A stretch of DNA of 64,000 nt from Buxus sempervirens. Taxonomy: Eukaryota; Streptophyta; Magnoliopsida; Buxales; Buxaceae. Below, in pieces: positions 9,343 through 55,402 of the stretch. A program made the position numbers and the translations under genes. Each line of letters opens with the position of its first letter. Position 1 is the stretch's first letter. Where the stretch lies: NCBI GenBank assembly GCA_947561395.2, contig OX387190.1:19214858-19278857 (forward strand). Reading direction: 5' to 3'. The notes beneath the pieces were generated by a model that ran no database searches, had not been told where the DNA came from, and saw only the letters and a list, made by a program, of their open reading frames with translations.

Positions 9343-12036
9343 TGTAGACACCCCAAATTGCACAGTAAAAATGAAGAATAATTGGCAAAAATCATTATCT
9401 CCTTTGAAACCAGCACAAAATTTGTGAAAACAAGCTTTTTCCTTGTATCCGACAACTCAGGTCAGATACAAGCATACCTCTTCGTATCCGACCTAAGTTG
9501 TCGGATACAATTAGACCTTAATGTATTCGACAACATATGCCGGATACGTATAGGTGCTTGTATATCCGGCCTGATATGTCGGATACATTATTTTTGCTCA
9601 AAATTAGGATTTTCCAAGAGTTTTCACTTTTTACCATCATATCCTTCATTAAATGAGTGGAAATCTCGGAAATAGCCTTAGGGTCAAGGTTGGTAGGCTC
9701 TAGACATTAGTTTGTGTCTACCATCTCCCCAACCCTAACCCTAGCCTTTGCCTATAAATAGGAGGCTCCTCCTTAAGCAAATGGCCATTAACTCTTGCCA
9801 TTAACTCTTGCCAAGAACTTTTGCCAAGAAGTTGGAGATCAAAGAGCTTCGAGTGAAGAGGGGAACCGCTGCAGTCTTGCTTCCAGAAGCCCAGGTAAGC
9901 CTCAAACCTCTCTTTATTTTTCTGTTTTACATTCTAGATCTAGATCTCTTCTTCTACCTTTCTGTAGAATAAGGCCTCTTCTATATGTGTGAAAACCCTT
10001 CCCCTACTCAAAGTACCTTGAGACTCCCCCTAGCCGTAAAACGTGAAGGCGGGATCTAGGGGAAACAAGACTGGGGATTGATCCTAGTGTTAGAACTTAT
10101 TTGAATATGCCTTTTGAATCTTTGAAAACTGTTTCATATTCAAAGTACCCCAAGATTATCTTGAAGAACCGTGTTTAACGGGGAGAGAGAACTAAGGGAA
10201 ACGATGATGGAACGGAACCCTAGGTTGTTCTAGAACCCTTTTGATTGATCTAGATGCATGTTATTATGTTGAAATAAGCCTTGTGATTCTATGAAAACCG
10301 TTCCATACTCAAAGTACCCCAACATTATCTTGAAGAACCGTGTTTAACGGGGAGAGAGAACTAAGGGAAACGATAATGGAACGGAACCCTAGGTTGTTTT
10401 AGAACCACATCTGATTGATTTAAATGCATGCCACATGTTGTTATATTGTTCTTGAATGGATTTTTATACACATTCACACATCACTTGTTTTGCCGGATTT
10501 GGCTTGTATTTCGGATTCATTGCATTCATTGTGATAAATCTGGAATAAATAGCCTCAAATAATTCTGGAATATTTCTTGTTGGTTTTCAATATGATTTCA
10601 AGCAAGTTTTGTTGAGTATTGAAGGCCTCTAGGTCTAACCTCTCGGTTTTGGGCATTTTTGCTCACTTTTTGGGGTTTTTGGCATATCCTTTCCAATCGG
10701 AGAGGATGGTGAGCCAAACCTGTGCCCCATTTCTTTCTAGAGGTTCTTCAACATCTTTTTAAAATGGTTTTGATCTATCTTGCACGGATCACACACCTCT
10801 TATCACTGTTTTGAGTTGATTCTCTTCAAAAAAGGCTTAACTTGACAGCAACTGTACCCCAACTTCGGACACTCATAACTTCATCGTCCGGATGCATTTT
10901 GGAGTGATTCTAGAGCCATGGGAAAGGTCAGGCTGTCTAGTTTTTGCTTGTAAAATTTCATTAATTTCTATATAGCGGATTTTTGACACCTCTCTATCGA
11001 AGTTGATAGGTCAGTTCAGATCTGAATATAGAACCTGTCACTTCGACTGAGCGCCATACATTCGTTTTAAGTCCGATTAGAGTGATTCTTTTTTTTGAGT
11101 TTTCCTTTGGGAGTCTAATTTCAAATCCAGTTGGTTTCATATTTTTTTGACTCCATTTGTGTCGTGAGCAATAGATTTACTCAGAGCTGTTCAACAGAAC
11201 TTTTCTGGGTAAATCTGTGATCTTCGGGGCCTGTTCGGAAGACCACCCAAGGCACCTCCGAATGAATTTTTGTATGAGGTTAGTTTTGTTTGAAATATGG
11301 TCATACAGACTTTACTCCCACCAAATTTCATGGATTTATATGGAGCCGATATTTCTAGATAAGTTTCTAAACTTGCCCACTTGCCACTTTTTATTATCTC
11401 CAGCAGCAGATTTCACAGGAGAATAACTCCTAGGATTTTAATCGGAATGGATTGAAAATTTGCATGAATCTTCTATCTACCATAATCTTTCAAATGGATT
11501 TGGTTTGATTCAATTTAAAATTGGATTTGAATGATTTCAAGACAAATGGTTCTTGCTTTTACCGAATTTTCCGGATTTAACTCAACTCGGTTTTGTGCAA
11601 CTTTTGTTTTGATTTCCATCTTTTGGTGATATTCCCGAAGTGATATTGACATAAAAGAAGATCTGGAATTCATTTGGATTTTCATGTGAAGATATCATAC
11701 ATTTGTCCTTTTCCAAGGTTTTTAATGATTTTTAGCAAGCTTTCTTATTTTTTAGCATGAACAACACTTAGCAACCACCTTATGTGGGTGAATGGGGGTG
11801 CCTAACACCTTCCCCCGTTCATAATCTAATCCCCTTACCCATCTCTGGATTTGATTTTCAAGTAGAGTTATTTTTACTCTAAAATTTTCCTTTTAGCTCT
11901 TTTTGATTATTATTTTGAATCTTTTGGTGTCCATTCTCACCTCAAAAATCTGAATGGTGGCGACTCTCCCATTTTACGTTGAGCCCGTGTGTTGACGGAG
12001 GGGAAATCACCCCGGTGATTTTTCCCATGTCTCACA
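9343..12036 (+). mobile_element. 3' LTR of element A1 (family A)
   Basis: Starts TGTAGACACCCCAAATTG and ends ...CCATGTCTCACA, about 2.69 kb. A four-unit palindrome array lies at 9444-9587, a TATA box (TATAAATA) at 9753-9760, and a splice donor CCAG|GTAAGC at 9894/9895. It matches A2 LTRs and solo LTR A3 in order and sequence. Beyond 12036 the sequence is that of LTR G, so CAACC at 12037-12041 is probably half of the target duplication; the other half is off-window. Near 10080-10400 a block containing GAACCGTGTTTAACGG occurs twice, an internal duplication of about 180 bp. Confidence 0.9.
9444..9587. promoter_or_regulatory. Palindrome array, A1 LTR U3 (4 units, 39-bp period)
   Basis: Four 27-bp inverted repeats start at 9444, 9483, 9522 and 9561, exactly 39 bp apart. 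The first has arms TGTATCCGAC and GTCAGATACA around the loop AACTCAG; the others vary (for example TATTCGAC with GCCGGATA). The array ends 165 bp upstream of the LTR TATA box. Confidence 0.9.
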
Positions 12037-13904
12037 CAACCCAGCCTAGTTTGGGTTTCGGGTTGCTCTACACCAGTCATGGCAACACTCATGGCCATGC
12101 AATTACATCAATAAAGCCAACACATTACATTACTAAGCTTAAGACATGGATCCAAGGCAAACTAGACCAAGTAAGTAAAATCAAGCCATCAAGTAAACCA
12201 AAGTGTTCAAGTATATAAACATGGGTCACTCATGAACAAACCCACTCCATCATGGAGAATCTCAAATACACGCCTTCAAGGCAACTTTTCCATAACAAAC
12301 AGTATGTAAATAAATTCAATCATGAGATAGAAAGACTAATCCCAATTTGTCCGGAAAACTCAAAGTATTCCAAATCTGCTCAAAACAGAGGAACCCTAAT
12401 TGTGCAATTCCAGAAGTGAAACCATGTTTAAGAGCAACTAATACAAGTATAAGAAACCTTCAATTCATTTAAAATCAGAGAATAGAACATAAATTCGTTA
12501 CATTCCAAAAACAAGACAAATTTTAGATAAATGTGCCCAAATTCTATGATTAATTCAATAAATTCAATTGGTCACTGAAAATCACTTTTAGAGACCTAAA
12601 TATAGTTTATACATGACTTGGATTGATCTAGAAATTGATCTGAGGTGGAAAACATCTCAAAAATCAGGTTGGCCGAAAACAGAGAGTGGGGGCTTGTCAG
12701 GATCGCTCAGGCGACTTGGTTGAGCGTCCGTTCATTTGCGTGAATTGCGGCTAATTGAGTGATCACTTGAGAGAATGCCCAAGCGATCTCTCCTGAGTGA
12801 TAGAAAAACTTGGTGAAATAAATGGGCGCTTAATCAATCACCTAGGCGAAGGGTTGAGCGATCCCTGAAGTTCTATGATAGCGGCAAAACTCCTTACTTT
12901 AACTACGATTCTTCCATCTCTAAACTAAAATTACTCATTCTAAACACTTTAATTTCATGCTTAGAACACCTTAGAAACTCAAATCAATGATTCACTATTT
13001 AATTAAACTGAAATCCACAAAGTAATTCAGATTTTCACCCATTCGAACATTGAATCAGATTTGTCGACTAATCAGTTGTTTCAATTTGAAATTAAACCAT
13101 TTATGCATTATAATTCGAAATCAAAGGGTGCTACTCACCTCTAGGAAGCTCAATCAACACAATTCAAAGCCTAAAACCTGAGAAGCTTCAGATCTCGCAA
13201 TTCTCTATAATTACTCACTGTTTCACTGAAATGTTTCCAGATCTGATTAGATCTGTTCTAAACTGAACGAATCCATCTTAATAATTGCAATGATTAAATT
13301 GAACCTCTTTTACCTAATTTTTCTCTGATTTGGACGAACCTTGAAGTGATCTCCATAGAAATTCCAAATCTCACTCCAAAATCAGCACTCACGATCACTG
13401 AACTCTCTTGGCTTGATCAACTCTTCAATACTTCTCCAAATCAATTGTGTAATCTCTTTTTCTTCTCAATCTCTCACAGATTTGGATCTTGTTCTCTTCT
13501 TTCAGCCCTCCAGAAACATCCGACTCCAAACAACCAATTAACTAACAAAGCCAGTCAACTGATTTTGCCCCCCTTTTATACTCTATGATTTTGCAGCCCA
13601 ACTCCTTTGAACACCACTTTATTTGCTAAATTGCCACTCCAGCATTTTCTCTACACATCCAAAACTAAAATATAAACAAACACTTAAATAAACAATACTT
13701 AATATCATTAGAAAATTATAATAATTATTTACCTCATTAGGAAATTATAATAATTATTTACCTCACTTAAATAATTTCTATTTTAAATTCCTGAACTTAC
13801 ATAATATCCTCCAATTCCTTTTCCTAAAATTTTTCCACCAATAATAACAATTAATAATATTAAGTCAATTTCCAAATTTGCTAATCAAAATTTGGGGTTT
13901 TACA
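12037..13904 (-). mobile_element. LTR G remnant (minus strand), invaded by A1
   Basis: Minus-strand LTR that starts TGTAAAACCCCAAATTTTG at 13904. A TATA box lies at 13580-13573 (TATAAAAG) and a splice donor AGAG|GTGAGT at about 13140. It is related to E and G2 by its TGTAAAACCCC start and layout. The left side runs straight into the end of A1, so the rest of G should lie beyond the left window edge. Clustered GCGATC/GATCGCTC motifs occur at 12705-12870, at the place where E has a similar GC-rich cluster (36784-36970). Confidence 0.7.
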
Positions 13905-15490: not shown

Positions 15491-15545
15491 GAAAAAAATG
15501 TTCATGTTAATCAACCAATTGACACAATCACTTCTAAAGGGGAAA

Positions 15546-18360: not shown

Positions 18361-18369
18361 AATAACATG

Positions 18370-19707: not shown

Positions 19708-20053
19708 TGTAGACACCCCAAATCACACCGTATAAAATAATGAATGAATACATGATAAAAAAGGATTTATTCATGAATGACTGGAATTATATTTCAATGA
19801 TAACTATTTCTTTTTGTAGCCGAAAATATATTTCGGATAAAGACTTTTATTTTGTAACCAAAATGTTATGTCGGATACAAAATTTTATATGTGTATCCGA
19901 AATAATATTTCGGATCATGCCTATGAGCTGGCACTTCAAATCTTTTACAGTTAGGCCACCTCAGCAATTGCACATGGCTTTAATTGAATTTGATCTGAAA
20001 TAATATTTCTGATACATATATTTTCTTTGTGTCCGAAATAATATTTCGGATAC
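19708..20053 (+). mobile_element. LTR D, left part (split by A2)
   Basis: Starts TGTAGACACCCCAAATCAC after ATCCA. It continues at 54395 and ends CCATGTCTCACA at 56657, again followed by ATCCA (56658-56662). With A2 removed it is about 2.6 kb. No PBS or polypurine tract adjoins either end, so it is a solo LTR. It belongs to the same broad class as A and C but has its own palindrome sequence. Confidence 0.88.
19815..20053. promoter_or_regulatory. Palindrome array of LTR D (38-39 bp period, continued at 54407)
   Basis: Units start at 19815, 19853, 19892, 19990 and 20028, with one more at 54407-54433 beyond the A2 insertion. The core is TATCCGAAATA/ATATTTCGGATA, longer and more AT-rich than in family A. 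Spacing is 38-39 bp except for a 98-bp gap between units 3 and 4. A2 is inserted inside the unit at 20028. Confidence 0.8.
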
Positions 20054-20158
20054 TGTGAGACATGGAAAAATCATCGGGATGATTTCCCCTCCGTCATCAC
20101 ACGGGCTCAACGTAAAATATGGGAGAGTCGCCACCATTCAGATTTTTGGGGTGTGAAT

Positions 20159-22578
20159 TGTGAGACATGGAAATTTCATCTAGGATGACTTCCGATATCG
20201 TCACGCGGGGATCGATAAATGTAAAGAGTCGCCACCATCCATCTTAAGGTGTGAATGGGCACCAAAGGGTTCATAGAAGCCAAATAGAACTAAAGTAGCT
20301 CTAAGATAAGGAAAAATCCAGAGATTAGGTAAGGGGAATTATTTATGAGCAGGGGAAGGTGTTAGGCACCTCCACTCATCCGTCTAAGACGGTTGCCAAA
20401 TGTTTGCTAACGCTAAAATATTGTTTGCTAATAAAAATGAACAAAGAGGTGTTTATAATAAGCACAATGTGTGTGACCATTCCACATGAGAAATCTAATG
20501 AACTTAGACTCTCTTCATAGATTCATCACTTCTAAAACTTCATGAGTGAATGGAAATCAAAGTAAAAAATGAAGAAAAATCAAGCTAAGGCAAATCTGGA
20601 AAATTCAGACCAAAAGAGCTTGAAAGCTTCCATTAACCATAACTCACTCAATTTAAATCCGAATCCAACGAAACCAAAGCCATTTGAAAACTGGTATATA
20701 GTAGAGTTTACATTAAAAAATTCAGCTCAATCCGATTTAAAACGAGAGAGAAATCCACATCTGAAATCTACTATTATAACTTGGAAAAAGTGTTAAGTAG
20801 GCATTTTCAAAATCCTATTCGTGGAGTTTGGCTCAATAAAAAATCATGAAAATTGGTATGGAGGAAGTATGTGGTGCCATCTTCCCAAAGAAAAAAAACC
20901 TCACACCAAACTCTACCCATATGTGGCTTGTGTGCTCTCTTGAACAGGCCTAGAAGACCACAGATTAGCTCTGGACTATGCCAGCGAGCACTTCTGAGTC
21001 AACTGAGCACCCAAGGCACAAAACAGATCAAAATCTGCTGAAACCAATTGGAAATGAAAATAGACTTCTCAAGGAAAACTCAGGAATTAGAATCACTCAA
21101 AACGGATTAAAATCGAGCAAACAGTGCACCATCAAAGCGGCAAGTTCAGCAATCTGGGCTGAACTGACTTACAGACTTTGAACAGATGGTGTCAAAAAAT
21201 GGCTCCATAAAAGTGAACGAAATTTTCCATATATAAAGTAGACCAACTCATCTATCACATGTCTTTAGAATCACTCAAAAATTCATCCGGAGGATGAAGT
21301 TATAAGCATTCCCAGACAGGCCACAGATCTGCCCTGTTTTGAAAACTTTTGAAGAAAAAAGCCAAACTAGTGTATGTGTGCAAGTGAATTCGACCAAAAC
21401 TCTTAAAAATCAACAAAAACAAACTCATGAAGTTCCAGGATTCATTCTGAAGCCAATAATTCCAAATTTCCCGTATTCAACATGGAAATCCAAAATCTAG
21501 CTTATTGGATGAACAATGGTGAAAGGTGTGTGAATATGTGGAAATCCATTCCCTAGGAGAAGGATGGAATCCTTTGCTATTGAGAGCAAGGATTCACATA
21601 TTTCTCCAGAAGCAGATACATAATCATCAGAAAATTCATCCAAAGGCTCAAAGTAACCATATAGCATGCTCTTCATCATTTGTAGGTTTTAAGCCTAGAG
21701 GATCCATTCCACCTTCCTTTTCCCAAGGCTCTCTCTTCACGTTTTACGGCTAAAGAGGATTCCCAGGTACTTTGGAAGAGGTTTGGGGCTTGCAAACAAC
21801 CACAAACTAGCTTTACACTACAGAAAGGTAGAAGTTGGGAGTTGGAATGTAAAGAAGAAGCTGGAAATGTAATCAGGACTTTACCTTAGGTAGCTTGAAC
21901 ACTTGAGGCAGCAATCCAGCAGAGTTTCTCCTCTTCTTGCAGAGCTTCCAAGCTTCAAATTATCAGCCATTTGCAAGAGGAGGACCTCTCTATTTATAGG
22001 CCAAGACAGGGGTAGAAGAGTCCCAAGGGTAGGCCAAAAAGCCTTCTAGATTATTCCAATTCTCCTCCAAGGCTTGAATTGGAGTAATTCAGCAAGTTTC
22101 TGAGGGTGAAATAGGGAGTTCAAGTCCCTGAGAGAGAGGTAATATGCGTAAATAAGGCTCAGAGATCGAGCCATTTCGCAAATCCCCTGAACAGCCAAAA
22201 CCGTATACACAGTGCGGTTTTCACGGAACCGTCACTATAAGTGCGGTTTCTATGCAAATTTAACCCAACCGTACATACAGGGCGGTTCAATTCAGTTACG
22301 CTCGTCATGATTGCTGTCGACGTGGCTCAACGGCCAAAGCTTCGCGAAGCCACGTGGCAGCTCACGCAACAAGCATGGATATCAACCGTGCTGTGTGTGT
22401 GGTTACAACCGCACATACAGAGCGGTTGAGACCAAAATTACAAAAACCGTTCATTCAATACGGTTAGCACCACTTTTGAGAGTTTTTGAGTTTTTGACAA
22501 ATGTCAATGCTCAAATAAGACATTTAAAGTTCTTTTTGAAGGTTCTCTTCTATGGAAATGTAATTTGGGGTGTCTACA
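20159..22578 (-). mobile_element. Solo LTR C
   Basis: Minus-strand LTR of 2.42 kb, TGTAGACACCCCAAATTAC... to ...CCATGTCTCACA, flanked by GAAT (20155-20158 and 22579-22582); only four of the expected five bases match. Removing it restores GGTGTGAATGGACACC, as found intact at 52081 in the 5' LTR. The TATA box is at 21998-21991. A candidate first exon starts ATGGCTGATAATTTGAAG at about 21973 and reaches a donor (CTAAG|GTAAAG) near 21887. Confidence 0.9.
22199..22465. promoter_or_regulatory. Palindrome array of LTR C (AACCG type)
   Basis: Six 21-22 bp inverted repeats with arms AACCG(T/C)/(G/A)CGGTT start at 22199, 22227, 22267, 22384, 22407 and 22445. Several share the inner phrase ACATACAG. 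The sequence is unrelated to the TATCCG units of family A, yet it sits at the same place, about 200 bp upstream of the LTR TATA box. Confidence 0.8.
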
Positions 22579-24713: not shown

Positions 24714-24841
24714 TGTATCCGACATGTCAGGTCGGATACACGAGCGCCTATATGTATCCGACATTAAGAGCTGTTTATATCCGATAACTTATGTCGGATA
24801 TGAAGAGGTATGCTTGTATCCGACCTGAGTTGTCGGATACA
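24714..24841. promoter_or_regulatory. Palindrome array, A2 3' LTR U3
   Basis: Units at 24714-24740, 24753 (truncated), about 24776 and 24815-24841. The second and third units are joined by a 16-bp deletion relative to 54184-54249 in the 5' LTR. The first and last units keep perfect 10-bp arms (TGTATCCGAC/GTCGGATACA). Confidence 0.88.
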
Positions 24842-25512: not shown

Positions 25513-25578
25513 TGTATCCGACGTAACTCGTCGGATAAGAAGAGTCTCCTATGTATCCGACATAACATGTCGGATACA
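25513..25578. promoter_or_regulatory. Palindrome array upstream of the PMD gene (2 units)
   Basis: Units at 25513-25539 (TGTATCCGAC, loop GTAACTC, GTCGGATAAG) and 25552-25578 (TGTATCCGAC, loop ATAACAT, GTCGGATACA), exactly 39 bp apart. They lie just before the inferred 5' untranslated exon of the PMD gene. The nearest TATA-like string is the weak TACATAAG at 25585. The arms match those of the A2 LTRs. Confidence 0.85.
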
Positions 25579-28500
25579 TTAGCTTACATAAGTCGCGCGC
25601 GACCACGACTCTTCCACTTCTGTTCTTTCTTCTCCGATTGCACACCCTGGCTACATACTCCTCCTCCGACTGTGGCATTCGATCCCTTCTTTCTCCGGCG
25701 ACTTCTCCGGATTCCGGCGACTCCTATTGACACCGGCGACCGTCCTTAACTCCGACGACTTTCCAGTGATCGCCCTTTCACGGCCGTGGTCGAGCCCTAA
25801 CTCCTTGTCCTCCGATTTTCGGCGATTTTCTCAACTCGGCGTGGGGCACTGTTCTCCGGCGATTGCTTCCAGATCTAGGCGACCTGAGCAGCACTCCTTG
25901 CTCGCCATAGTGGTTGGTTTCTTTCCTCGTCAGCAACTCCTCTTCTTCCAATTTTTAGGTAAGTTCTTTGAATCACTTGCATTGATTGGGATTTTTGCTG
26001 AGGAGGAATTCTGGCCGAATTGCTTCATTTTTCATGTTCCTGGTTACTTTTTAATGGTAAATTTGCTTTGACTGCCAATTCTTGAGCTGTCTACCGGTGG
26101 AGGCTATATTGCATGCTTTTTCGATTGATACCATGCTGGCATGATCACCTTGATGCTTTTTAGGTTGTAGGGACCTTGAATTGCTGATATCGCACTGCCA
26201 TTCACATTGGCTCTTTCCTGATCTGATTGCCAATTCTTGACTTGAATTTGGATTACCTGTTGGTGGTAATTTCCAACTAGATTTCTGACTTTGTATACCT
26301 TAAATGCTATTGATCATGTCGATATATGACAATGGCAGATCTGATTCCAAATATCATGTTGTGTGTTTTTTTTTCTCTGCAACTTGCTTGGGCTTTCCAC
26401 TTTAATTTAGCATTTTTCCAATCGAGGCAGTGCTTCTATGATTTGTTCTTGCATGGTCTTCGCTTTATGGATTCTCTGCATGGCCGCCCCCAACTTGGCG
26501 TCCCGGTAGTCTCCTGAGATTTTGTAGGACTAATTGCATGCAGTTCTTGCTAGGACCTTGCTTTGCACATTGTTTTCCTGATTACGTCTGGTAACCCTGA
26601 AAGAAAATTAAGAAAATATTAAGCTTCCCAGAAATTTTAGGACAATATTTGGAAATGCCTTAGAAACAAAATTTCTGATAAATAACTTAGCACAAAATTG
26701 TTAAATAGACAGAAATACCAAACACTTTCTAAAAACTTTGAACTGAAACAGAGAACAAAAGTAAGATAGAACTCCCTCAAGACTCAATCCATGATAGCTT
26801 TGAAAAAGTCCGCTAAGATTCCTGATGAACTAGAACCGAAACCTAGACCTAAAGCAAGGTGAGATTCCTGATAAATTTGAACTGAAACCTAGATTAAAAG
26901 CAAGGAAAGATTCCTGATAAGCACAGTAGGATAAATTTGAACTGAAACACTTCCCTGTTACTTGTAGATGGCTAGGAGTCGTTCCCGTGTTCGGGAGGAG
27001 GATGACCCTGCTGATCAGCCCTCCACCTCGTGGGCTTGGACAGAGGCGAGTTCTAGCGCCACCCTGTCAGAGCCGTTAGATGATTTCAGAGAGAGCTCTG
27101 CTGAGGGCTCTGCTGAGGTAGGCTTCCCAATTCTTTCTTTCTTTTCTTGCTTCCCTTGAACCCAACTTTGCTTATACATTTCTGTTTCTAGCCTGTCATT
27201 GATCCTGTTCGAGGCTGCGGTAGAGGGCGAGAACGAGGCGGAGGTAGAGTTGGTGAGAGGGGCCGAGGTCGAGCTGGAGAGAGGGGCCGAGGCCGGGCCG
27301 GAGCTTCAGGCCAGGAGGGTGCTGCTGTAGCCTTACGCTTAGGGGTCTCTGCGGAGCTGAGAGCATCTGTTCATGATACAGAGATCTTTAGTGGTTTGGA
27401 TAGCCACCCCTCCATGTGCATCTGGGCCGATGTGCCTTTTCCGTACCCTCCTTATCATCTACGAGGCAGTTGGGGGAGATTTAGTGAGTTGGCGCAGACA
27501 CTTTCTCCGGCACTCAGGCGTGAGTTTGGGAGGTGCCACCTGGATTATTTTCTCAGCATCCCTTCATTCCGAGCCTATCGTCCCCTCATCTTCGCTATGA
27601 TGGAGTGATATTTTCCGGAGATGCAGTCATTCCATCTGCCGGACGTGGAGCTAGGGATCCGCCCTTCTGATTTTGTGATGATCACTAGCATTTCTCTAAT
27701 GGGGCAGACTATTGTGCTGGATCGGTCCTTAGTGGCGGACATCGGCCTTCTTTTGGGATACCAAGACCTGCCTCCTGCTGCTTGGGACGGGCGGAATGGT
27801 CGTATCTTCATTAGCTGGCTGCGGGAGAGCCTTACTCGACATTATGAGGGGAGACATGCGACCATCACCGTGGAGGATGCAGTCTTCGCACCTATTTTCC
27901 GGCACATGTTTCTGCTGATGCTTGGGAGCTGCTTCTTCCAGGAGGACACGACCAGTGTTAGTCCTCTTTTCCTGGATGCTTTGAGAGATCTCCATCAAAC
28001 CCGAAAGTTAGCCTGGGAGCGGCTCATATATGGGACTATCTTGGCTGGATTGTGCCGAGTAGTTCGAGGCCTGGAAGCCCCGAGAGGTGATGGAGTCAGC
28101 TGCCGGTTCTTTTGGCAGATCCTGCAGGTACTAAATTCATCTATCCTGTCTTATTCCTTGGGCTTTGTCTTCTTTATCTTTGACTGATTTTTCTTTTGTC
28201 AGGTGTTCATGTACACCTACATGACCTACTTCCGCCCGTCCCCCGTGCCTGGCGTAGCGGATTTTCCTGTTGCCCTGCGGTGGTTAGCCCAGGTCCAAGA
28301 TGCAGATAGGAGTCAGCCCCGCACTACTCGAGTTCACTTGGACCGCGCCCGACGATTTGCTGTAAATTCTTCGCCCCTTTCCCTTTTATTTCTTTTCCTG
28401 TACCTTGACTGTATCTGACCATTTTATTCTTCTTTGCAGCTCATCCTGGCACGCTTTGATGACGTGGATATTGGGGTGGCCCATGAGATGATAGTACAGG

Positions 28501-30348: not shown

Positions 30349-30453
30349 TGTATCCGGCAACTCAGGCCGAACACACACAAGCTGTAGGTGATCCGGCCTA
30401 ACTTGCCGGATACACAGGGGCCCTAGGTGATCCGGCCTGAGTTGCCGGATCAC
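30349..30453. promoter_or_regulatory. Palindrome array 1 in the B2 LTR (3 units, 39-bp period)
   Basis: Units start at 30349, 30388 and 30427. The first has TGTATCCGGC, loop AACTCAG and GCCGAACACA; the third has arms GTGATCCGGC/GCCGGATCAC, a matched change from TATCC/GGATA to GATCC/GGATC. This part of the LTR lies downstream of the promoter in minus-strand sense. Confidence 0.85.
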
Positions 30454-31515: not shown

Positions 31516-31763
31516 TGTATCCGGTAACTCAGGCCGGATACACTAAGTCCTTTCCTTATCCGGCCTTCGTGGCCGGATACACTAGTCTTCCTTTGTATCC
31601 GGTCTTCAAGTCCGGATACAAAACATAATCATTTGAAAATTAAATGCCGCCGCGAATTGGTCGGGCGATTGGCGCGAATCTCGCGCGAAAATCTTCTTGT
31701 ATCCGGTCTTCAAGTCCGGTCATGAAGGGTAGCTAGTGTATCCGGTATATTTGACCGGATACA
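31516..31763. promoter_or_regulatory. Palindrome array 2 in the B2 LTR, next to its TATA box (5 units)
   Basis: Units start at 31516, 31555, 31594, 31698 and 31737; within each group the spacing is exactly 39 bp. Arms are TATCCGG(T/C)/(G/A)CCGGATA. On the minus strand the array ends 10 bp before a TATAAATA box (31505-31498). B1 and B3 have a large AAGCTT palindrome in this position instead. Confidence 0.88.
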
Positions 31764-33874: not shown

Positions 33875-34035
33875 TGTATCCGGCATATCAGATCGGATAC
33901 ATTGATATTTGTTTGTATCTGACAAGTTATATCGGATACACGCAAACTTACTTGTATCCGGCATTTTACATCGGATATGAAGAGATTCACTTGTATCCGA
34001 CCTGATATATCGGATACATTAAAAATGCTATAAAT
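33875..34035 (+). promoter_or_regulatory. Promoter of the antisense DUF7745-like gene: palindrome array plus TATA box
   Basis: Four 27-bp units start at 33875, 33914, 33953 and 33992 (exact 39-bp period), with arms such as TGTATCCGAC/ATCGGATACA. The last ends at 34018, and a TATA box (GCTATAAATGC, TATAAAT at 34029-34035) follows after 10 bp. The ATG at 34146 is about 110 bp further on. Array, 10-bp gap and TATA recur at 31498-31542 and 49931-49974. Confidence 0.85.
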
Positions 34036-34145
34036 GCAACCAGCTTCGGGATTTGCGTATTTTTTACGAGTTTTTGAGTTTAGAAAACCCCTTTTTCACC
34101 TTTTTCTTCCTCCCATTGATTCTTAGCTTGCTCCCATCACCTCCA

Positions 34146-37100
34146 ATGGATTCCGAATCATCTTTTGCCCTACCAATGTCTATCCACGCAGCCTCCCCTG
34201 CAAAACAACCTTTTAGAGCAAAACCCCCTAATCTCACTAGGTACAGCCCTGTGGATTCATTCTACACTAGGTGGGTCAACTCCATGACCCTTGATGAAGA
34301 GATCAGATGGGATTCTATTCATTTAGGCCACACCTTGCTTATCCCTTCCATCTCATTCAAATGAGAAATTATTGAAGCCATGATTGGCCATTGGATACCT
34401 GACCTAAACCTTTTCCATTTTGGCGACCATGAGATGACCCCAACCATTGAGGAGGTTGAAACTATCCTGGGCTTGAGGTTTGCAGAGAGGGTAGTGAACC
34501 CACCCCTTAAACCTAGTTACAAGAAAGAGGCTTCTACTTTCCTGGGCATAGGGAAGAAGGATTTAGGGGATTCTGACACCCTTTTGACTTTGTCCAAGTC
34601 TTTTCTGACTGAGAAGCTCTTGAGGGGGGAGAACAAGGAAGCCAGGTTCAATGCCTTAACCCTGATAGTGGTTAACCAACTGCTTTTTCCCCGGGATGAC
34701 GATGAGGTAGACCTGGCCCTTATCTCAGTTGTATGCCAGGTTAGGGAGCGGGAGAGATTGGCCCCTATGGTATTGGCAGGGATGTACCAGGCTTTGACTG
34801 ACTGTTACTACAGGAAGAAGAAGCGCTTCCTATCATGTGCACCTATCCTGCAAGTAAAAATTTTCTCTCTCCTTTTTTTCTTTTTTTTTTCTTTTGCTTT
34901 TTCTTTCTTTTTGCTTGCTTTTCTTTACAATATACTAAAATATCCCTCCTTCTTTGCAGCTTTGGTTACTTGACCACCTGAGTCAGATTGAGGAGATCAA
35001 TTGACACTTCTTCCCTAGCTTGAAGGTTCCTATTTTGATGAGCAACCGGGGGTGTCCTGACATTTCAGGAGGTAAACAGGGTTGGTTTACCTTCTTGGCT
35101 ACACTCCAGGATGATCAGGTGAGGTGGCCTGGTACTTATTAACCTAATGCAGAGATGGTGATCAGCTTTCGAGACCGCAACTTTTTGGTCCTGGCTGTAA
35201 CGCCCCGAACCCGAGTCAGTGCAAACCGGCACCTGACCCGAACCCGGTTCGCTACTGTAACAACCCGAATTTAGTTCAACAACCAAATCCGAGGTGTTAC
35301 TGGCCCATATCAATTACAACATCAATAACATACCAGACCAAAGAAAGTAAATCCAATCCATATATTAAACTATCAGAGTTGCGGAAACAAGTATGTGCGG
35401 AAGTGTAGATCAAAATCCTCAAACAAGCATAAAGCTTGAGCATCAGTCAGTAATATCAAAGTCTGGTAAAATGAACGGGTCACTATCTCTCTCTCTCTCA
35501 TCTCTCTCATACATCAATCCATATAAATGATAATAAACCAATCAAAATGCTAAATCTATAACATCAATCCACCTCAGATGAGATCTGGATAATAATAATC
35601 CTCCGGCGAATACTCGGCTATCTCTCCCTGGAAGTCTAAGAGATCCCCCTCTCGCGTATTAGCTGAAAAAAAATGGAATAGAAGTAGGGTGAGATACGAA
35701 TATCTCAGTAGGTAACACATGCATGATTAAACAGTTAATATAAGCAAAGTAACATTTCATGCACGATTAAGCAACATCGATAAATCAGGCTCGCATAATC
35801 ATTTATACCATTCATGAACACAAAACAGTTTGATAAACAGTTCTAGAAATGATTTTCAGCAAGTTTTAATATAAGAACTCAATAGCCAAATCAGTAGCAT
35901 AATCCATGCATTGCCAGGATGTACTAAGCAGTCACATCCAACCAATATCCCAATCACATGCATCCCGCACGTGCACAATAAGAATAATAATCATATCAAG
36001 TGTTATGTTTTCAGTGTCATTGTAGGACTCACAAAGTAAGATAAACCTTTTGGAGATGATTCTCAACCAATTGCTATACCACCGTGCGACTTAGGAGCGA
36101 TGCTACTAATGATACTCAAGCCCCATGCAGCGCAGCTTAGACAAGAGCCGTAGTCACCGACTTATTGCACACGTACCCATCAAAGTTGGCATGTACCACC
36201 AGCATGCAGCACCAGAATCAATACATGGAGGTGGTTGCTTATCCACATGTACAGGGAATCACCAGCGGCTCACCGGGGTGTCCCTCCAGACATAGGACCT
36301 TCCCAGACAAACTAACTTGCAAAGGAAGCGCGTCGCATATAGGAGTAACTCAACCCAAATGACATATCCCTCAGCTATCTAGCTATGACTATGGATCCAT
36401 AACCAGCTATGCCCACTAGACTCCAAAATTCCCTAAAGTATCATAATTCTATAAGGGTTGGTGCCTAGCGGCATATAATGGTTATATCTGTACATTCACT
36501 TCATTATTCAGTCATTCGGATTCTGAATTCCCTTTATAATGTCTTATGATTTAAAATATCATTTAGAAGTGTTTAGATAATAAAATGGTAGTTAGGCTCT
36601 TCCAAAATCACATTTCTCCTTTTCCTTCAAAACTTGGCAACTAATGTCCTAAATATCTCCCTAATTTGTTTTTCTGTAAAACAGGGATTTAGGTAGTTTA
36701 TTTTGGTCTTAAAGTACCTTAATTAATCATTAAAATTGTCTAAAAATAATTTAGAATTGAATTAGGTTCAAAATTATGAAAAATTGGAAATTCTGCTGAG
36801 AGCGCCTGGGATCGCTCAGGATCGCTCTGGGCGGTCATCAGTCGGCGGTAGTGCAATTTCGAGCGCCCACGGTCCGTCGTCCCGCGGTCCACGGCGTCCT
36901 CAAAACTTTAACCAGCGCCTAAGATTGCCGATGAGCGCCTCGCACAGTCGAGGTCGGCGGTCTCACCAATTCGAGCAGAAACAGTTCTAAATCACGATTT
37001 TTCTCGTCTAAACTCATTCTAATGTATTTATAACATGCTTAGCTAACTAAATGCAACTTTACATATCATAGAAACATGCGTTTGTGATTAAACAGAGATA

Positions 37101-38230
37101 AATCCGAATTTAAACCCAAAACGGTGTCACCTACCTCTATACGCTGCTTCCTCCTCCTCTATTCTGCACAATGGCTAAACTCCTGCACAGAGAAATCCTC
37201 TGGACGATGAACGCACGCCCAGCCCTTCCTTCTTCTTCTCCTTCTTCTTCCCTTGGTCGCTCGAACAGTCGTCGCTTGCGGCTCTTCAATACGCGCGACA
37301 ATACATGTATAAGAATTAGGTTAATTCTTTATACATATTTATACCCCTTGATCCAATGCATCTCCCATGCAACTCTTCTATACACCTTGTCCAATCAGAA
37401 TACATACCTCGATATCTCACGATCGGACGGTCAGATCTGCGTCTAATTCTGGATCTCCGCTAAGTTGATCACCCCCTACAATATTAAAATGTTTCTATCA
37501 ATCATAACTCTGGGTAATATTATTTACTAATTTAATTTATTATTTAAGGGAAATTCGGGGTTTTACACTGGCTGGCTTGGGACATGATGTGCTTTACCTT
37601 CCTTTGCGGGTTCTTCATCAGTTCAGAGCGACCCAGGGGATTATAATCCCAAGTGGATATGAGGACCATCTTAGGCCGCTTTCACCAGCCACCATGAAGC
37701 TGAACGCTTGGTTGATGAGGAAGTGGTCCTATGTTCGTTTTAGGCGGGGTCCAGTCTTCTCAGAGTCCCATGTGAAGGACTATCTCTTCTGGATCAGGGA
37801 GCAGATACAGAGTCAGGCTTTAGTACCCGAAGATCCTCCTGCAGTTTTGGCTCCTACTTATGAAGACATCCTAGAGTCTGAGAGAGCTTCTCACAAGCGA
37901 CTTTAGCAGATATGGGTACAAGAGGCCCAGGAGCTTAGGATACGAGGCCTTGACATGGAGAGGCAACTTGCAGAGCAGGTATCCCGCCGTCTTGCTATGG
38001 AAAAGCAACTTGAGGAGCAGAGGCAAGCTCGCTGCTTTGAAGTCCGAGCACTGCGGCAGAAGCACCAGGATGCTTTAGCCAGCCTTAGGAGCATGAGGAT
38101 CAGGTAGACCCTTTCAGATGAGGTTATTTCCTTCTTGAGTGATCCCGCTGCAGAGGGGGCTTTTGGAGTTATTGCAGCTCAGGCAGCTCAGATTCGGGAG
38201 CTTGAAGAGCGGCTAGGAGACAGAGATTAG
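34146..38230 (+). pseudogene. Antisense DUF7745-like gene of A2, split by LTR E
   Basis: Two exons: 34146-34853 (donor CAA|GTAAAA) and 34960-35195 joined to 37573-38230, for about 533 codons. Exon 1 has an N-terminal disordered part, then EMTPTIEEVETILGL, NALTLIVVNQLLFP and a LxxxYxALxxCxxKK-type stretch. Exon 2 runs from LWLLDHLSQIEE through NFLVLAGLGHDVLYLPLRVL and HVKDYLFWIREQIQ to a helical Gln/Arg/Glu-rich C-terminus ending RELEERLGDRD. The arrangement resembles plant DUF7745 proteins, of unknown function, often retroelement-linked. In-frame stops occur at 34362, 35002, 35141, 37903 and 38105; at least two read as sense codons in A1. Opposite orientation to pol. Confidence 0.82.
35196..37567 (-). 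mobile_element. Solo LTR E in the DUF7745-like gene
   Basis: 2.37 kb, flanked by CTGGC (35191-35195 and 37568-37572). On the minus strand it runs TGTAAAACCCCGAATTTCCC ... GGGGCGTTACA. A TATA box lies at 37343-37336 (TATAAATA) and a donor-like AGAG|GTAGGT near 37134. No PBS, polypurine tract or coding sequence is present. Removing it restores the reading ...NFLVLAGLGHD... A GC-rich cluster of GCGCC/GATCGCTC phrases lies at 36784-36970. Confidence 0.9.
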
Positions 38231-41457: not shown

Positions 41458-41558
41458 TGTAGACACCCCAAATTGCATTGTCAAAATGATTAATAATCAC
41501 CAAAAATCATTATCTCCTTGAAAGCCAACACAAAATTTGAAGAAAATAAGTTTTCTCT

Positions 41559-41702
41559 TGTATCCGGCAAATCAGGCGGGATACAAGTACCCTACTTTGT
41601 ATCCGGTGGAAAATACCGGATACAAGAAAGCTTTAGTGTATCCGGCATTATATACCGGATACCTTAAAGCCCTTGTGTATCCGGCCTGATATGCCGGATA
41701 CA
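41559..41702. promoter_or_regulatory. Palindrome array of LTR A3 (TATCCGG variant)
   Basis: Units start at 41559, 41598, 41637 and 41676, exactly 39 bp apart. Two have perfect arms: TGTATCCGGT/ACCGGATACA and TGTATCCGGC/GCCGGATACA. The base that differs between them is matched on the opposite arm. A2 LTRs have CCGAC/GTCGG in these places. Confidence 0.9.
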
Positions 41703-41884
41703 TAAGTTTTGCTCAAAATTAGGGTTTTCCGAGAGATTTCACTTTTTACCATCATGTCCCTCATTAAATGAGGGGAAATCTCGGAAACAGCCTTAGGGTT
41801 AAGGTTGGGGGGCTCTAGACAATAGGTTGTGTCTACCATCAACCCTAGCCTTTGCCTATAAATAGGAGGCTCCTCCTCAAGCAA

Positions 41885-41959
41885 ATGGCCAAGAAGTTGG
41901 AGATCCAAGAGCTCCGAGTAAAGAAGAGAACCGCTGCCGGATTGCTTCTAGAACCCCAG
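41885..41959 (+). other. Candidate LTR leader exon with ATG and splice donor
   Basis: About 20 bp after the TATA box an ATG opens a 25-codon frame (MAKKLEIQELRVKKRTA...LLEPQ) that ends exactly at CCAG|GTAAGC. The same frame, without the adjacent ATG because of a short duplication, is present in A1 (AKKLEIKELRVKRGTAA) and in the A2 5' LTR (AKKLEIEELQVKKGTAP). LTR D has ENFEVKELLKKKGTSA before AAG|GTAAGA. It could be coding or a conserved RNA leader. Confidence 0.5.
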
Positions 41960-43690
41960 GTAAGCCTCAAACCTCTTCTTTATTTTCTGTATTTACATTC
42001 CTAGATCTAGATCTCTTCTTCTACCTTTCTGTAGAATAAGGCCTTTTAGGGTTTTCCGAGACTAGGGATTGATCCTAGTGCTAGAACCTATCTTGCATAA
42101 GTCTTTTGAATGATTGAAAACCGTTTCATATTCAAAGTACCCCAAGATTATCTTGAAGAACCGTGTTTAACGGGGAGAGAGAACTAAGGGAAACGATAAT
42201 GGAACGGAACCCTAAGTTGTTTTAGAACCTTATTTTGATGAATATGGATGCATGCTATGCTATTATATTGTTCTTGTATGATTTTTCACACTTGCACATA
42301 CATAGCATGATTTTGGCGGGATAGGCTCATATTTGGGGATTTATTACATTCGTTGTGATAAATCTGAAATAAATGGCCTCAATCAATTCTGGAATGTCTT
42401 TAAATGATTTTAAATGATTTGGATTCATCTTGCATGAATTGCACACACTTTGTCACAGTTTTGGATATTTTTTCTCCAAGAAAGGCTTAACTCCACAACA
42501 ACTATACCCCTACTTCGGACACTCATAACTTCATCGTCCGGATGAATTTTGGAGTGATTCTAGAACCATGGGAAAGGTGAGGCTATCTAGTTTATTCCTA
42601 CCAAATTTCATTAATTTCTATCAAGCGGATTTCTTACACCTCTCTGTCGAAGTGGATTGGATAGTTCAGGTTTAAATACGGAACTTGTCACTTCGACGGA
42701 GCCCTATGTGTTCGTTTTAAATCCGATTCGAGTTATTTTTGTTTCTGGGCACTCCTTTATGAGTCTATTTTCAAATCCAGTTGGTTTCATAATTGTTTGA
42801 CTCCATTTGTATTATTGGTAACAGATTTACTCAGAGCTGTTCATCAGCACTTTTCTGGGTAAATCTGTGATCTTCGGGGCCTGTTCGGGAGACCACCCAA
42901 GGCACATCCGAATGAATTTTTGTATGAGGCTAGTTTCATCTAAATTTTGGCCATACAGACTTCAATCACACCAAATTTCGTGGATTTTTATGGAGTGGAT
43001 TTTGCTAGGTGATTTTCCAAACTTGCATGCTTATCACTTTTGATTTTCCCCAGCAGCAATTTTAAAGGAGCATAACTCCTAGGATATCAACTGAATTTAC
43101 TTGAAATTTTGCATGATTCTCTTATTTACCATGATCTTTCAAATGGATTTGGTTTGATTCAATTTAAAATTGATTTTGAATGATTTCAAGACAAATGGCA
43201 TTACTTTTCACCGAATTTTCCGGATTTAACTCAACTTGGTTTTGTGCAACTTTTACTTTAGATTTCCATTTTTGTTGATATTCCAGAAATGATATTGACA
43301 TAAAAGAAGATCTGAAATTCATTTGGATCTTCATGTGGAGATATCATATATTTGGCCTTTTTCAAGGTTTTTGATAATTTTTAGCAAGCTTTCTTATTTC
43401 TTTTTTTGCATGAACAAACACTTGGCAACCACCTTGTGTGGGTGAATGGGGGTGCTTAACATCTTCCCCCGTTCATAATCTAATCCCCTTACCCATCTCT
43501 GGATTTGATTTTCAAGTAGGGTTATTTTTACCCTAGAATTTGTCTTTTAGCTATTTTTGCTTATATCTTTAATCTTTTGGTGTCCATTCACACCTTAAAA
43601 TTCTGAATGGTGGCGACTCTCCCAATTTTGCATTGAGCCCGTGTGTTGACGGAGGGGAAATCATCCCGGTGAATTTTCTCGTGTCTCACA

Positions 43691-48974: not shown

Positions 48975-49660
48975 GCTTGGAATATTCTAGGGCTTCCAGG
49001 CGTCCCACAAAATTTTTGATTTTGATTGATTCTCGTAACCAAACAAAGGTTTTTTTTTTTTGAATATTCTGGGGCTTCCAAATGTCCCGCAAAATTTTCT
49101 TTGATTTGATTGGATAAAATGACCAACCAAAGGTTTTTTTTTTGGAATATTCTAGGGCTTCCAAGCGTCCCACAAATTTTTGATTTTGATTGGTTCTCGT
49201 GACCAAGCAAAGGTTTTTGGAATATTCTGGGGCTTCCAAATGTCCTATAAATTTTTTGATTTTGAATGGTTCTCGTAACCAAACAAAGGTTTTTGGAATA
49301 TTCTGGGGCTTCCAAATGTCCCATAAATTTTTTGATTTTTGAATGGTTCTCGTGACCAAACAAAGGTTTTTGAAATATTCTGGGGCTTCCAAATGTCCCA
49401 CAAATTTTTGATTTTGAATGGTTCTCGTGACCAAACAAAGGTTTTGAGAATATTCTGGGGCTTCCAAATGTCCCACAAATTTTTGATTTTGAATGGTTCT
49501 CGTGACCAAACAAAGGTTTTTAGAATATTCTGGGGCTTCCAAATGTCCCATAAATTTTTGATTTTGAATGGTTCTCGTGACCAAACAAAGGTTTTTGGAA
49601 TATTCTGGGGCTTCCAAATGTCCCATAAATTTTTTGATTTTTGAATGGTTCAAAGGTTTT
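48975..49660. repeat. 75-bp tandem repeat array in the A2 leader (about 9 copies)
   Basis: AATATTCTGGGGCTTCCAAA recurs at 48981, 49063, 49146, 49221, 49297, 49374, 49449, 49524 and 49599, at steps of 82, 83, 75, 76, 77, 75, 75 and 75 bp. Because 75 is divisible by three, three minus-strand frames and one plus-strand frame stay open as 25-residue repeats. The array lies just upstream of the gag ATG. Coding is doubtful because no frame is favoured. Confidence 0.85.
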
Positions 49661-49930: not shown

Positions 49931-50091
49931 TTTATACATTTTTTGAATGTATTCGACATGACACGTCGGCTAAGGCTATGGCTTATTGTATCCGATATAA
50001 ATGATCGGATACACGCATAAGCCTTTGTAACCGACAAAGTATATCGGATATGAATAAAACTCTGTTTAACCGACCTGAGTTGTCGGTTAAT
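49931..50091 (-). promoter_or_regulatory. Possible internal sense promoter: palindrome array plus TATA box before gag
   Basis: Four units start at 49948, 49987, 50026 and 50065, exactly 39 bp apart. Unit 2 has perfect arms TGTATCCGAT/ATCGGATACA; unit 4 has TTAACCGAC/GTCGGTTAA. On the minus strand the array is followed after 11 bp by TGTATAAATTGG (TATAAA at 49936-49931), pointing toward gag. This copies the layout of the DUF7745-like gene promoter. Promoter activity is inferred. Confidence 0.75.
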
Positions 50092-51964: not shown

Positions 51965-51984
51965 AGTCCCCAATAGAGTCGCCA
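51965..51984 (-). other. Primer-binding site of A2
   Basis: Two bases after the 5' LTR end, on the minus strand, TGGCGACTCTATTGGGGACT. It is the same class of site as in B1 (TGGCGACTCC). It orients the element and marks 51987-54389 as the 5' LTR. Confidence 0.82.
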
Positions 51985-51986
51985 GT

Positions 51987-54389
51987 TGTGAGACATGGAA
52001 AAATCACTGGGATGATTTCCCCTCCGTTATCACACGGGCTCAACGTAAAATATGGGAAAGTCACCACCATTCAGATTTTTGGGGTGTGAATGGACACCAA
52101 AAGATTCAAAATAAGCAAAAAGAGCTAAAAGGCAAATACTAGAGTAAAAATAACTCTACTTGAAAATCAAATCCAGAGATGGGTAAGGGGATTAGATTAT
52201 GAATGGGGGAAGGTGTTAGGCACCCCCATTCATCCACACAAGGTGGTTGCCAAGTGTTGTTCATGCTAAAAAATGAGAAAGCTTGCTAAACTCATCAAAA
52301 ACCTTGAAAAAGGATAAAACAAATGTATGATATCTTCACATGAAAATCCAAATGAATTTCAGATCCTCTTTTATGTCAATATCACTTCTGGAATATCACC
52401 AATAGATGGAAATCAAATCAAAAGTTACACAAAACCAAGTTGAGTCAAATCCGGAAGATTCGGTAAAAGATAACGCCATTTGTATTGAAATAATTTAAAT
52501 CCAATTTAAATGGAGCCAAACCAAATCCATTTGAAAGATTATGGTAATAAGAGACTCATGCAAAATTCCAATTAAATCCGATTGAAATCCTAGGAGTTAT
52601 GCTTCTTTTAAAAGTGCTGTTGGAGGTAGTAAAAAGTGGCAAGGGGGCAAGTTTGGAAAATTATCTAGAAAAATCTACTTCATATAAATTCATGAAATTT
52701 GGTGGGAATGAAGTATGTATGGCCATCTTTTAGATGAAACTAGCCTCATACAAAAATTCATTCGGATGTGCCTTGGGTGGTCTCCCGAACAGGCCGCGAA
52801 GATCACACATTTACCCAGAAAAGTGATGTTGAACAGCTCTGAGTAAATCTGTTACCAACAACACAAATGGAGTCAAAAAATTATGAAACCAACTGGATTT
52901 GAAACTAGACTTCCAAAGGAAAACTCAGAAAAAGGAATTATTTGAATCAGACTTAAAACGAACACATGCCGTTTAGTCGAAGTGACAGGTTCCGTATTCA
53001 GACCTGAACTGAACTATCAACTTCGACAGAGAGGTGTCAAAAATACGCTTGATAGAAATTAATGAAATTTTACAGGCATAAACTAGACAGAATCAACTTT
53101 CCCATGGCTCTTGAATCACTCCAAAATCCATCCGGACGATGAAGTTACGAGTGTCCGAAGTTGGGGTACAGTTGCTGTCAAGTTAAGCCCTTTTTTGAAG
53201 AAAATCAACTCAAAAAATGATAAAGTGTGTGGAATCCATGCACGAAAAATCAAAACCATTTTGAAAAGATATTGAAGAACCTCTAAGAAGAAATGGGGCA
53301 CAAGTTCGGCTCACCATCCTCTCCGATTGGAAAGGATATGCTAAAAACCCAAAAATTGAGCAAAAGTGCCCAAAACCGAGAAGTTAGACTTAGAGGTCTT
53401 CAATGCTTGCTTGAAATCATGTTGAAAATCAATAAGAAACATCCCAGAATTGTTTGGGACTATTTATTTTAGATCTACCACAATGACGGCAATAGATCCA
53501 AAATACAAGCCAAATCCGACAAAACAAGTGCTATGTGTGTAAGTGTAAAAATCCATTCTTTAACAATATACGGATCTTCAAGATAATCTTGGTGTACTTT
53601 GAATATGAAACGGTTTTCATAGAATCAAAAGGCTTATTCCAATCAAGGTTCTAGCACTAGGATTAATCCCCAGTCTCGTTTCCCCTTGATCCCGCCTTCA
53701 CGTTTTACGGCTAGGGGGAGTCTCGAGGTACTTTGAGTAGGGAAAGGGTTTTCATACACATAGAAGAGGCCTTATTCTACAGAAAGGTAGAAGAATAGAT
53801 CTAGATCTAGAATGTAAAAACAGAAAAATAAAGAGAGGTTTGAGGCTTACCTGGGCTTCTGGAAGCAAGACTGGAGCGGTTCCCTTCTTCACTTGGAGCT
53901 CTTCAATCTCCAACTTCTTGGCAAAAGTTATTGGCAAGAGTTAATGGCCATTTGCTTAAGGAGGAGCCTCTTATTTATAAGCAAATTCTAGGGTTAGGGT
54001 TGGTGGGATGGTAGACACAAACTAATGTCTAGAGCCCACCAACCTTAACCCTAAGGCTATTTCCGAGATTTTCACTCCTTTAATGAAGGATATGATGGTA
54101 AAAAGTGAAAACTCTCGGAAAACCCTAATTTTGAGCAAAAATCATGTATCCGACATATCAAGTCGGATACACGAGCGCTTATATGTATCTGACATATGAT
54201 GTCGGATACATTAAGAGCTGCTTGTATCCGATAACTTATGTCGGATATGAAGAGGTATGCTTGTATCCGACCTGAGTTGTCGGATACAAGGAAAAATGCA
54301 CATATCTCAAATTTTGTGCTGGTTTCAAAGGAAATAATGATTTTTGCCAATTATTCTTCATTTTTACTGTGCAATTTGGGGTGTTTACA
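51987..54389 (-). mobile_element. 5' LTR of A2 (family A)
   Basis: 2.40 kb on the minus strand from TGTAAACACCCCAAATTGC (54389) to CCATGTCTCACA (51987). A TATA box lies at 53979-53972 and a donor CCCAG|GTAAGCC at 53851/53850. It carries the AKKLEIEELQVKKGTA leader exon. It lacks about 110 bp present in the 3' LTR near 24060-24150. The right flank is GATAC and the rest of LTR D. Confidence 0.92.
54145..54288. promoter_or_regulatory. Palindrome array, A2 5' LTR U3 (intact 4 units)
   Basis: The best-preserved array: 27-bp units at 54145, 54184, 54223 and 54262, exactly 39 bp apart. Units 1 and 4 have perfect 10-bp arms TGTATCCGAC/GTCGGATACA with 7-nt loops ATATCAA and CTGAGTT. On the minus strand the array ends 165 bp upstream of the TATA box. 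Confidence 0.92.
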
Positions 54390-54394
54390 GATAC

Positions 54395-55402
54395 AAAGAA
54401 TTTATTTTTATCTGACCTGTGTTTTTGGATACAAGTGTTTTACTCCAAATTGAAAAAAACCCCGCGAGCTGTCACTTATTCACATCTATATATACCTCTA
54501 TATGGGAAATGTGAATTCCCTAAATTGGCCTCCGAAATCAGCCAAATTCCTCAAATTCATGCCTTAGGCTTGAGTTGGAAGATTTAAACACACTTTTGTG
54601 TTTACCCTTAGAACTTTATTGCCCTTGGTCTTGCCTATAAATAGAGGGCCTCTCCTCTAGCAAACGGCTGAGAATTTTGAAGTTAAAGAGCTCTTGAAGA
54701 AAAAGGGAACCTCTGCCCAATTTTCCACTCAACTCTCTCAAACTACCAAGGTAAGATATTACACTTATCTCTTTAGTTTATTTCAATTCAAGCAATCTCT
54801 TTTTCTACCTTTTTGTAGATAAGGCCATGTTGTGTTTGAAACCCCAAACCATGCTTAAAGTACCTTAAGCACCATCTCTAGCCGTAAAACGTGAAGAGAG
54901 AGCTAGGGGAAACAAGTGTTGGAATGGATCCTTAGGCTTAGAACCACTTTTAGATGAGATAATTGCATGTTTGGTTTAAATTTATGTATGATTAATATTT
55001 GTACTTGATTTTGTTGAAAATCTGAAGAAATTACATAGATCTATGCTCTCTATAGCATTAGATTTCAATTTTCTCCTAAAAATCTGATTTCCTACACAAT
55101 CATACACACATCACTTGATTTTTGTCAAAATAGGCATAGATCTTAGATCTACTATGCTCAATATAGAAGATCTAAGATCGGAGGCCTTAGAGCAATCTCT
55201 TAGGACTTTGTGAGTTGAATTTAATTGGTTTTGATGTTCAAGAGAGGGCTTCATGGTCTAATCTCTCTTATTTGAGAAATTTGCATCAATTTGGGTAGAT
55301 TTGACTCTTTCTCTCCAAATAATGAGAGATCTGAGCTAAATATCTTTCTGAGTGTTTTTTAAACTCATTTCAAGTGATTTCAAATTAGATCATGTGGATC
55401 AA

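Follow-up and report, generated by a model that had tools for sequence, protein, structure and literature searches.

Here, we report that a 64,000-nt stretch of Buxus sempervirens DNA from contig OX387190.1 (hereafter the window), which is packed with nested long terminal repeat (LTR) retrotransposons, carries arrays of palindromic units that belong to a real sequence grammar of giant Ty3/gypsy elements, one that extends across the genome and differs between families. The invariant of this grammar is a CCG-N11-CGG dyad with family-specific flanks. In three families, a single palindrome type is found in the arrays of the LTR and of the antisense genes alike. The sequences point to the arrays as candidate binding sites of a dimeric regulator that the elements themselves encode and that co-evolves with its sites, a reading to which we assign a probability of about 0.5.

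In the window elements, the unit spans 27 bp, with 10-bp arms around a 7-nt loop, and a 12-bp spacer separates neighbouring units. When compared with TGTATCCGRY-N7-RYCGGATACA, the window holds 30 units (12, 8, 6 and 4 with 0, 1, 2 and 3 mismatches), while none with up to three mismatches occurred in 12 first-order Markov sequences of window length. The arm variants seen are CCGAC, CCGGC and CCGGT, and the array at 30349 has GTGATCCG. Searches of the whole assembly (676.5 Mb) gave 3,986 perfect sites of the CCGAC form (TGTATCCGAC-N{5,9}-GTCGGATACA) and 5,809 of the CCGGC form (TGTATCCGGC-N{3,12}-GCCGGATACA), with no site for either reversed control. The adjacent-unit pattern GTCGGATACA-N{0,30}-TGTATCCGAC matched 2,006 times, against 0 in the control. 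Among the matches listed, the loop was 7 nt and the spacer 12 bp despite the wider ranges allowed. Across 65 arrays from the window and 39 fetched loci (cited below by L numbers), 157 of 177 unit intervals were exactly 39 bp, eight were 104 bp and 12 had other lengths; this share is conditional, since an array was accepted only with at least one interval of 38-40 bp. Runs at 39 bp contain two to five units.

These counts bear out the observation from which the analysis started. The original prediction had described the 27-bp palindrome, its arms, loop and gap at a series of window positions, where the sequences read as claimed. The copy that it called damaged, at 24714, consists of units at 24714, 24753 (partial), 24776 and 24815. 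In the entry given as 19815-54433, 54433 marks the end of a weak unit (54407-54433) rather than its start. Other genomic copies also carry the palindromes, and the arrays do not read as one recent tandem duplication lacking arm conservation. A second kind of array in the window, absent from the original list, consists of AACCG-N11-CGGTT dyads at about 22,197-22,467 in another LTR.

The two half-sites of a unit change together. Mixed CCGAC/CCGGC units number 1,728 of 11,523, against about 5,617 expected under independence, a deficit to which shared descent contributes. To compare arms, loops and spacers, an anchor was used that found 29 copies of the family A LTR (LTR-A), 27 of them with three units in register. 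In copy pairs with flank identities of 75-85%, 85-92% and 92-100%, identity was 82, 86 and 90% in the arms, 57, 60 and 69% in the loops, and 47, 51 and 56% in the spacers. A further 95 pairs below 75% gave 87, 60 and 48%, respectively, at a level where ungapped flanks are unreliable. The arm values are inflated, since the loci had been retrieved by means of a perfect unit; the loop and spacer values are free of this bias. The arms are thus conserved, and loops and spacers change faster than the neighbouring LTR sequence. The loop of the unit next to the TATA box is CTGAGTT, CTGATAT or CTGACAT in 31 of 48 oriented runs; this agrees with the earlier remark that different families share the same loop, and the sharing is often seen in the TATA-proximal unit. 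Recognition may therefore extend into part of the loop.

By flank similarity, the arrays fall into LTR-A (36), LTR-B (10-11), two leader and two antisense-gene classes. LTR-B flanks did not cluster with LTR-A flanks, and the design is nonetheless the same in LTRs, leader and antisense-gene promoters, as first proposed. An LTR start was recognised for 22 rows, one L022 array being counted twice. In 13 of them, the array starts 101-102 bp into the LTR; 17 have four units, and in 15 the TATA box follows at 166 bp. The TATA distance of LTR-A arrays is 165-168 bp in 31 of 36, and 98, 155 and 156 bp in three; two have none. In LTR-B, the box lies at 11-12 bp in all 10 copies with a clustered TATA-side flank. 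The array upstream of the DUF7745 gene (antisense gene 2) has the same distance, 11-12 bp, both in the window and in L015, L035 and L060. Genome-wide, CGGATACA-N{2,30}-CTATAAA matched 2,644 times on both strands, against 53 in the control, with gaps of 9 or 10 among the matches listed. The order of LTR, gene-1 and gene-2 arrays is identical in the window, L015 and L024. LTR-B arrays are also interrupted by a recurring 104-bp step (e.g. 31594/31698), which is no multiple of 39.

We then turn to the sister families, here called G and N. Genome-wide, DUF7745 gave 5,751 first-look candidates, of which 118 were scored, and about 780 bp of upstream sequence was fetched for 20 of the 118. One (L060) has a window-type array followed at 12 bp by a TATA box. 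In six (L053, L058, L059, L061, L062 and L063), GCCCGTA-N7-TACGGGC units recur in steps of 27/28 bp, with a single clear dyad in L062; in the complete arrays of this G type, the TATA box lies some 20-25 bp beyond. Four (L056, L057, L064 and L065) carry AACCG-N11-CGGTT units (N type) in 28/41-bp steps. When CCG..CGG pairs were counted at gaps of 0-30, gap 11 accounted for 17 of 21 pairs in the G type and 11 of 21 in the N type, against 0.12 and 0.06 in shuffles; copies within one type are related, and these counts are non-independent. GCCCGTA palindromes match 11,285 times in the genome, against 61 in the control, with a loop of 7 among the matches listed.

If the reader is encoded by the element, a matching palindrome is predicted in the LTRs of the sister families. 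Such palindromes were located after this prediction from the gene-2 promoters, when the region of the 3' LTR was fetched for a single locus of each family. The LTR of L066 starts with TGTAGACACCCC and ends with TGTCTCACA, as in family A, and contains four dyads of the GCCCGTA type, the first at 105 bp, and CTATAAAT at 407 bp; four further dyads precede it. In the LTR of L067, five dyads of the AACCG type begin at 115 bp and CTATAAAT lies at 580 bp; two further dyads precede this LTR. Gap 11 was counted nine times in L066 and eight times in L067, against shuffle means of 0.71 and 0.55, and neither locus has an exact dyad with the TAT flank of the window family. Some A/B loci contain G-type arrays in addition to their own (L035 at 791-875). 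What the families share at depth is neither a period of 39 bp nor the TGTATC arm but CCG-N11-CGG, which the sister families keep with other flanks and with 27/28- or 28/41-bp steps. Since these families differ in the signal and share its internal spacing, the results suggest that each family reads its own signal.

The array-bearing elements suit an assignment to Ty3/gypsy elements of the Ogre/Tat type, because the domain order of reverse transcriptase (RT), RNase H and integrase on the minus strand of the window is the gypsy order and two RNase H matches lie in one frame at 39673-41250 (RT_RNaseH, profile end, 25 bits; RVT_3, 70 bits). The leader of E2, an element on the minus strand, carries TGGCGACTCTATTGGGG directly after its 5' LTR, a candidate for a primer site like that of Ogre elements, which would be complementary to tRNA-Arg. 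A dual RNase H has been reported for Tat, and PMD genes are already known in gypsy elements (both PMC9289625).

E2 carries two antisense genes on the plus strand. Gene 1 adjoins the 3' LTR and matches PMD (PF10536) above the cut-off in L015 and L024 and below it in the window. Gene 2 adjoins the integrase, which lies on the opposite strand (L025), and matches DUF7745 (PF24924, 69.9 bits). The first exon of protein 2 is 83% identical between A and G and 76% between A and N, against 80-90% within A; its later piece is 79% and 67% identical, against 83-85% within A. For protein 1, identity falls to 50% between A and G (one locus), from 81-86% within A. Given this stronger divergence between families, protein 1 appears more likely than protein 2 to confer specificity. 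Proline and alanine abound in its tail, where acidic residues make up 13-20% and basic residues 1-4%, and the protein has coiled-coil-like stretches, as judged by eye. Homologue and solved-structure searches with the PMD piece gave no match.

We then propose a model in which the arrays are rows of predicted dyad protein-binding sites upstream of the LTR promoter and the two antisense-gene promoters, with a further array in the leader. The reader would be a dimeric regulator encoded by the element, most likely protein 1, in which PMD is followed by the coiled-coil-like and the proline/alanine-rich acidic regions; protein 2 would perhaps join it. Binding would activate all promoters of the same family together or relieve their silencing, and protein and sites would co-evolve, in the manner of VANDAL transposons and their VANC proteins. 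The sequences directly show the arrays with their geometry and dyad, the TATA registration of the LTR and DUF7745-gene arrays, the concerted switch between families and the antisense genes; we infer the binding, its encoding by the element and the direction of the effect from the TATA registration, the joint switching of half-sites, the conservation of the arms, the three families with one type each, the palindromes found where predicted and the divergence of protein 1. The more specific version, a self-recognition system in which the antisense PMD protein itself is the dimeric DNA-binding regulator and reads CCG-N11-CGG dyads with family-specific flanks that co-evolve with it, such that a family activates or de-silences only its own promoters, is held tentatively, at somewhat less than even odds.

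Several observations weigh against a self-encoded reader. Nine of the 20 stretches upstream of DUF7745 have neither an array nor a TATA box, and no canonical TATA box follows the N-type gene-2 arrays within the sequence read. Leader arrays have no kept TATA box (one of three in leader-A, none in leader-B), and gene-1 arrays have only TATA-like sequence in three copies; the notion of a TATA box after every array was dropped for both. The evidence from sister-family LTRs consists of one fetched locus each (L066, L067) and the N-type LTR of the window, and the copies are related. L067 did not yield the PMD part of protein 1, and an AlphaFold model of the PMD piece from four alignment rows (mean pLDDT 42) was too poor for a fold search. 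Concerted change could also arise from homogenisation of arrays within an element. Finally, Copia Sireviruses have CGG-CCG palindromes as well, which points to a host factor.

This last observation underlies the main alternative, namely that a host transcription factor family recognises CCG/CGG dyads and that the retrotransposon families have adapted to different members. LOB-domain proteins would be candidates, and a literature search for a LOB-domain palindrome motif gave nothing useful. Palindromes with CGG-CCG are described in the Sirevirus LTRs of many plants, e.g. AATCCGGCTWRCCGGATT in Citrus and GTCGGACGTCCGAC in Usier (PMC2829016), and a site just before the TATA box would suit an ordinary activator. 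However, flanks switch both in the LTR and in the antisense promoters of three families of the same genome, which a shared factor does not require. We consider a host factor a serious alternative, on balance doubtful.

Another possibility is a function of the palindromes at the RNA level, as hairpins that trigger small RNAs or serve as a packaging or dimerisation signal. Every unit could fold, and Sirevirus palindrome regions are described as small-RNA hotspots in two papers (PMC10760457, PMC5311732, citing Bousios 2016). However, among mismatched stem pairs, G:T is not favoured over A:C (61 against 91, in 141 oriented distinct units), and this test of wobble tolerance disfavours selection for RNA hairpins. 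The LTR-A, LTR-B and gene-2 arrays are also in register with the TATA box, which suggests a role as DNA. We regard the hairpin explanation as improbable; small-RNA effects of hairpins may be a by-product. Two further readings were considered, in which 144 bp would be the length of a nucleosome and 39 bp a helical phase. Least probable of the three alternatives is a neutral minisatellite, in which a chance palindrome was tandemly duplicated and spread by transposition: the varying unit number and the identical neighbouring spacers of some arrays (L030) indicate that tandem duplication occurs, but the contrast between kept arms and variable loops and spacers disfavours it, as do the dyad common to arrays with different flanks and periods and the TATA registration.

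The features can be compared with known systems. Copia Sireviruses have repeated CGG-CCG palindromes upstream of the LTR TATA box and of an extra (ENV-like) gene (PMC2829016). Repeats with such a core before the LTR TATA box are present here too, and the original statement that no standard LTR feature explains the arrays was too strong; the original interpretation as a whole is partly supported. Sireviruses are, however, Ty1/copia elements, whereas the Buxus elements have a gypsy-like domain order, a fixed CCG-N11-CGG in three families at regular 39- or 27/28-bp steps, and arrays also at the antisense PMD and DUF7745 promoters. VANDAL transposons carry family-specific tandem motifs read by the element-encoded anti-silencing protein VANC (PMC5735166), and tandem short non-coding motifs that differ among related families are found here as well. 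VANDALs are DNA transposons coding for VANC, whereas PMD and DUF7745 proteins are encoded here by LTR retrotransposons; the VANC motif YAGTATTAY is non-palindromic, and binding has been shown for VANC and is proposed for the Buxus elements. Retand also has antisense genes (TRP28); they lie between pol and the 3' LTR and have been suggested to code for regulators that bind DNA (PMC11963269). The Pfam matches here are PMD and DUF7745, with no TRP28 profile search made, and the available part of the Retand report does not mention shared palindromes. The host PMD proteins MAIN and MAIL1, with PP7L, are needed for the expression of promoters with the DOWN motif (PMC7156037, PMC9899485), which likewise ties PMD proteins to genes with a short promoter motif. 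This motif, CATGCAGTTT, is unlike the Buxus unit, and direct DNA binding is unproven for MAIN and MAIL1 too. The combination of features was in no report found by a literature search with limited coverage of subscription papers, and an earlier report is possible.

Table 1 Arrays, elements and antisense genes in the window
Feature	Position	Strand	Remarks
Four-unit array, E1 LTR	9444..9587	+	101 bp from LTR start; CTATAAATA 166 bp after array (9753)
Damaged array, E2 3' LTR	24714..24841	-	TATA 166 bp after, on minus strand (24548)
Two-unit array before antisense gene 1	25513..25578	+	TATA-like sequence only; same class in L015, L024
Three-unit array, leader class, downstream of family B LTR	30349..30453	-	no TATA box kept
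LTR-B array, 3 + 2 units	31516..31763	-	104-bp step; TATA 11 bp after, on minus strand (31505)
Four-unit array before antisense gene 2	33875..34018	+	CTATAAATG with TATA 11 bp after (34029)
Four-unit array, family A LTR (41458-43690) inside E2 pol region	41559..41702	+	TATA 155 bp after
Four-unit array, E2 leader	49948..50091	-	TATA-like GTATAAATT 12 bp after; not kept in L021, L022
Four-unit array, E2 5' LTR	54145..54288	-	TATA 166 bp after, on minus strand (53979)
Degenerate array, TGTATCCGAAATAATATTTCGGATACA-like units	19815..20054	+	107 bp from LTR-like start 19708
Weak unit just outside E2 5' LTR	54407..54433	.	
AACCG-N11-CGGTT array, sister family N	22197..22467	-	LTR 22578-20159; first dyad 116 bp from LTR start, TATA at 581
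E2 5' LTR	54389-51987	-	self-alignment
E2 gag	48623-47676	-	
E2 RT	44505-43588	-	profile match
E2 RNase H + integrase	41250-39673	-	profile match
E2 3' LTR	about 24942-22579	-	self-alignment
E1 3' LTR, family A	9343..12036	+	self-alignment; start TGTAGACACCCC, end TGTCTCACA; E1 terminates with this LTR
Antisense gene 1 pieces	25592..28187	+	PMD-like stretch 27609-28187
Antisense gene 2, first exon region	34143..34973	+	DUF7745, PMD related; internal stop codon
Antisense gene 2, later pieces	about 34993-35196, 37544-37927	+	
E1 antisense gene 2 piece	7479..8090	-	85% identity to L025 piece

The E2 5' LTR seems to have inserted into, or next to, a further palindrome array (54389-54433), and a target preference is possible. 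Two relatives of LTR-B, B1 and B3 (3384-3428 and 58958-59002), have no 27-bp unit; they have one 45-bp palindrome (GGGTATSCGC...GCGGATACCC) instead, directly before a TATATAA box, with a core that occurs 42 times in the genome. B-type LTRs also contain 147-148-bp tandem repeats (3717-4227, 32057-32333 and 58159-58669). Close to the beginning of the E2 internal region, 75-bp tandem repeats (48977-49651) have their own 27-nt palindrome, TTTGATTGGT-N7-ACCAAACAAA-like, with 10-bp arms. In L007, L011 and L013, lectin / S-locus glycoprotein frames, probably receptor-like genes, lie no more than some kilobases from LTR arrays.

The three families amount to a natural swap experiment, with one dyad, differing flanks and a divergent antisense protein. 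The proposed model bears on the role of the antisense genes in such elements and on direct promoter contact by host PMD proteins. If the antisense PMD protein itself reads the dyads, PMD would represent a class of DNA-binding domain that is new, and the way in which MAIN and MAIL1 of the host get to promoters would also find an explanation.

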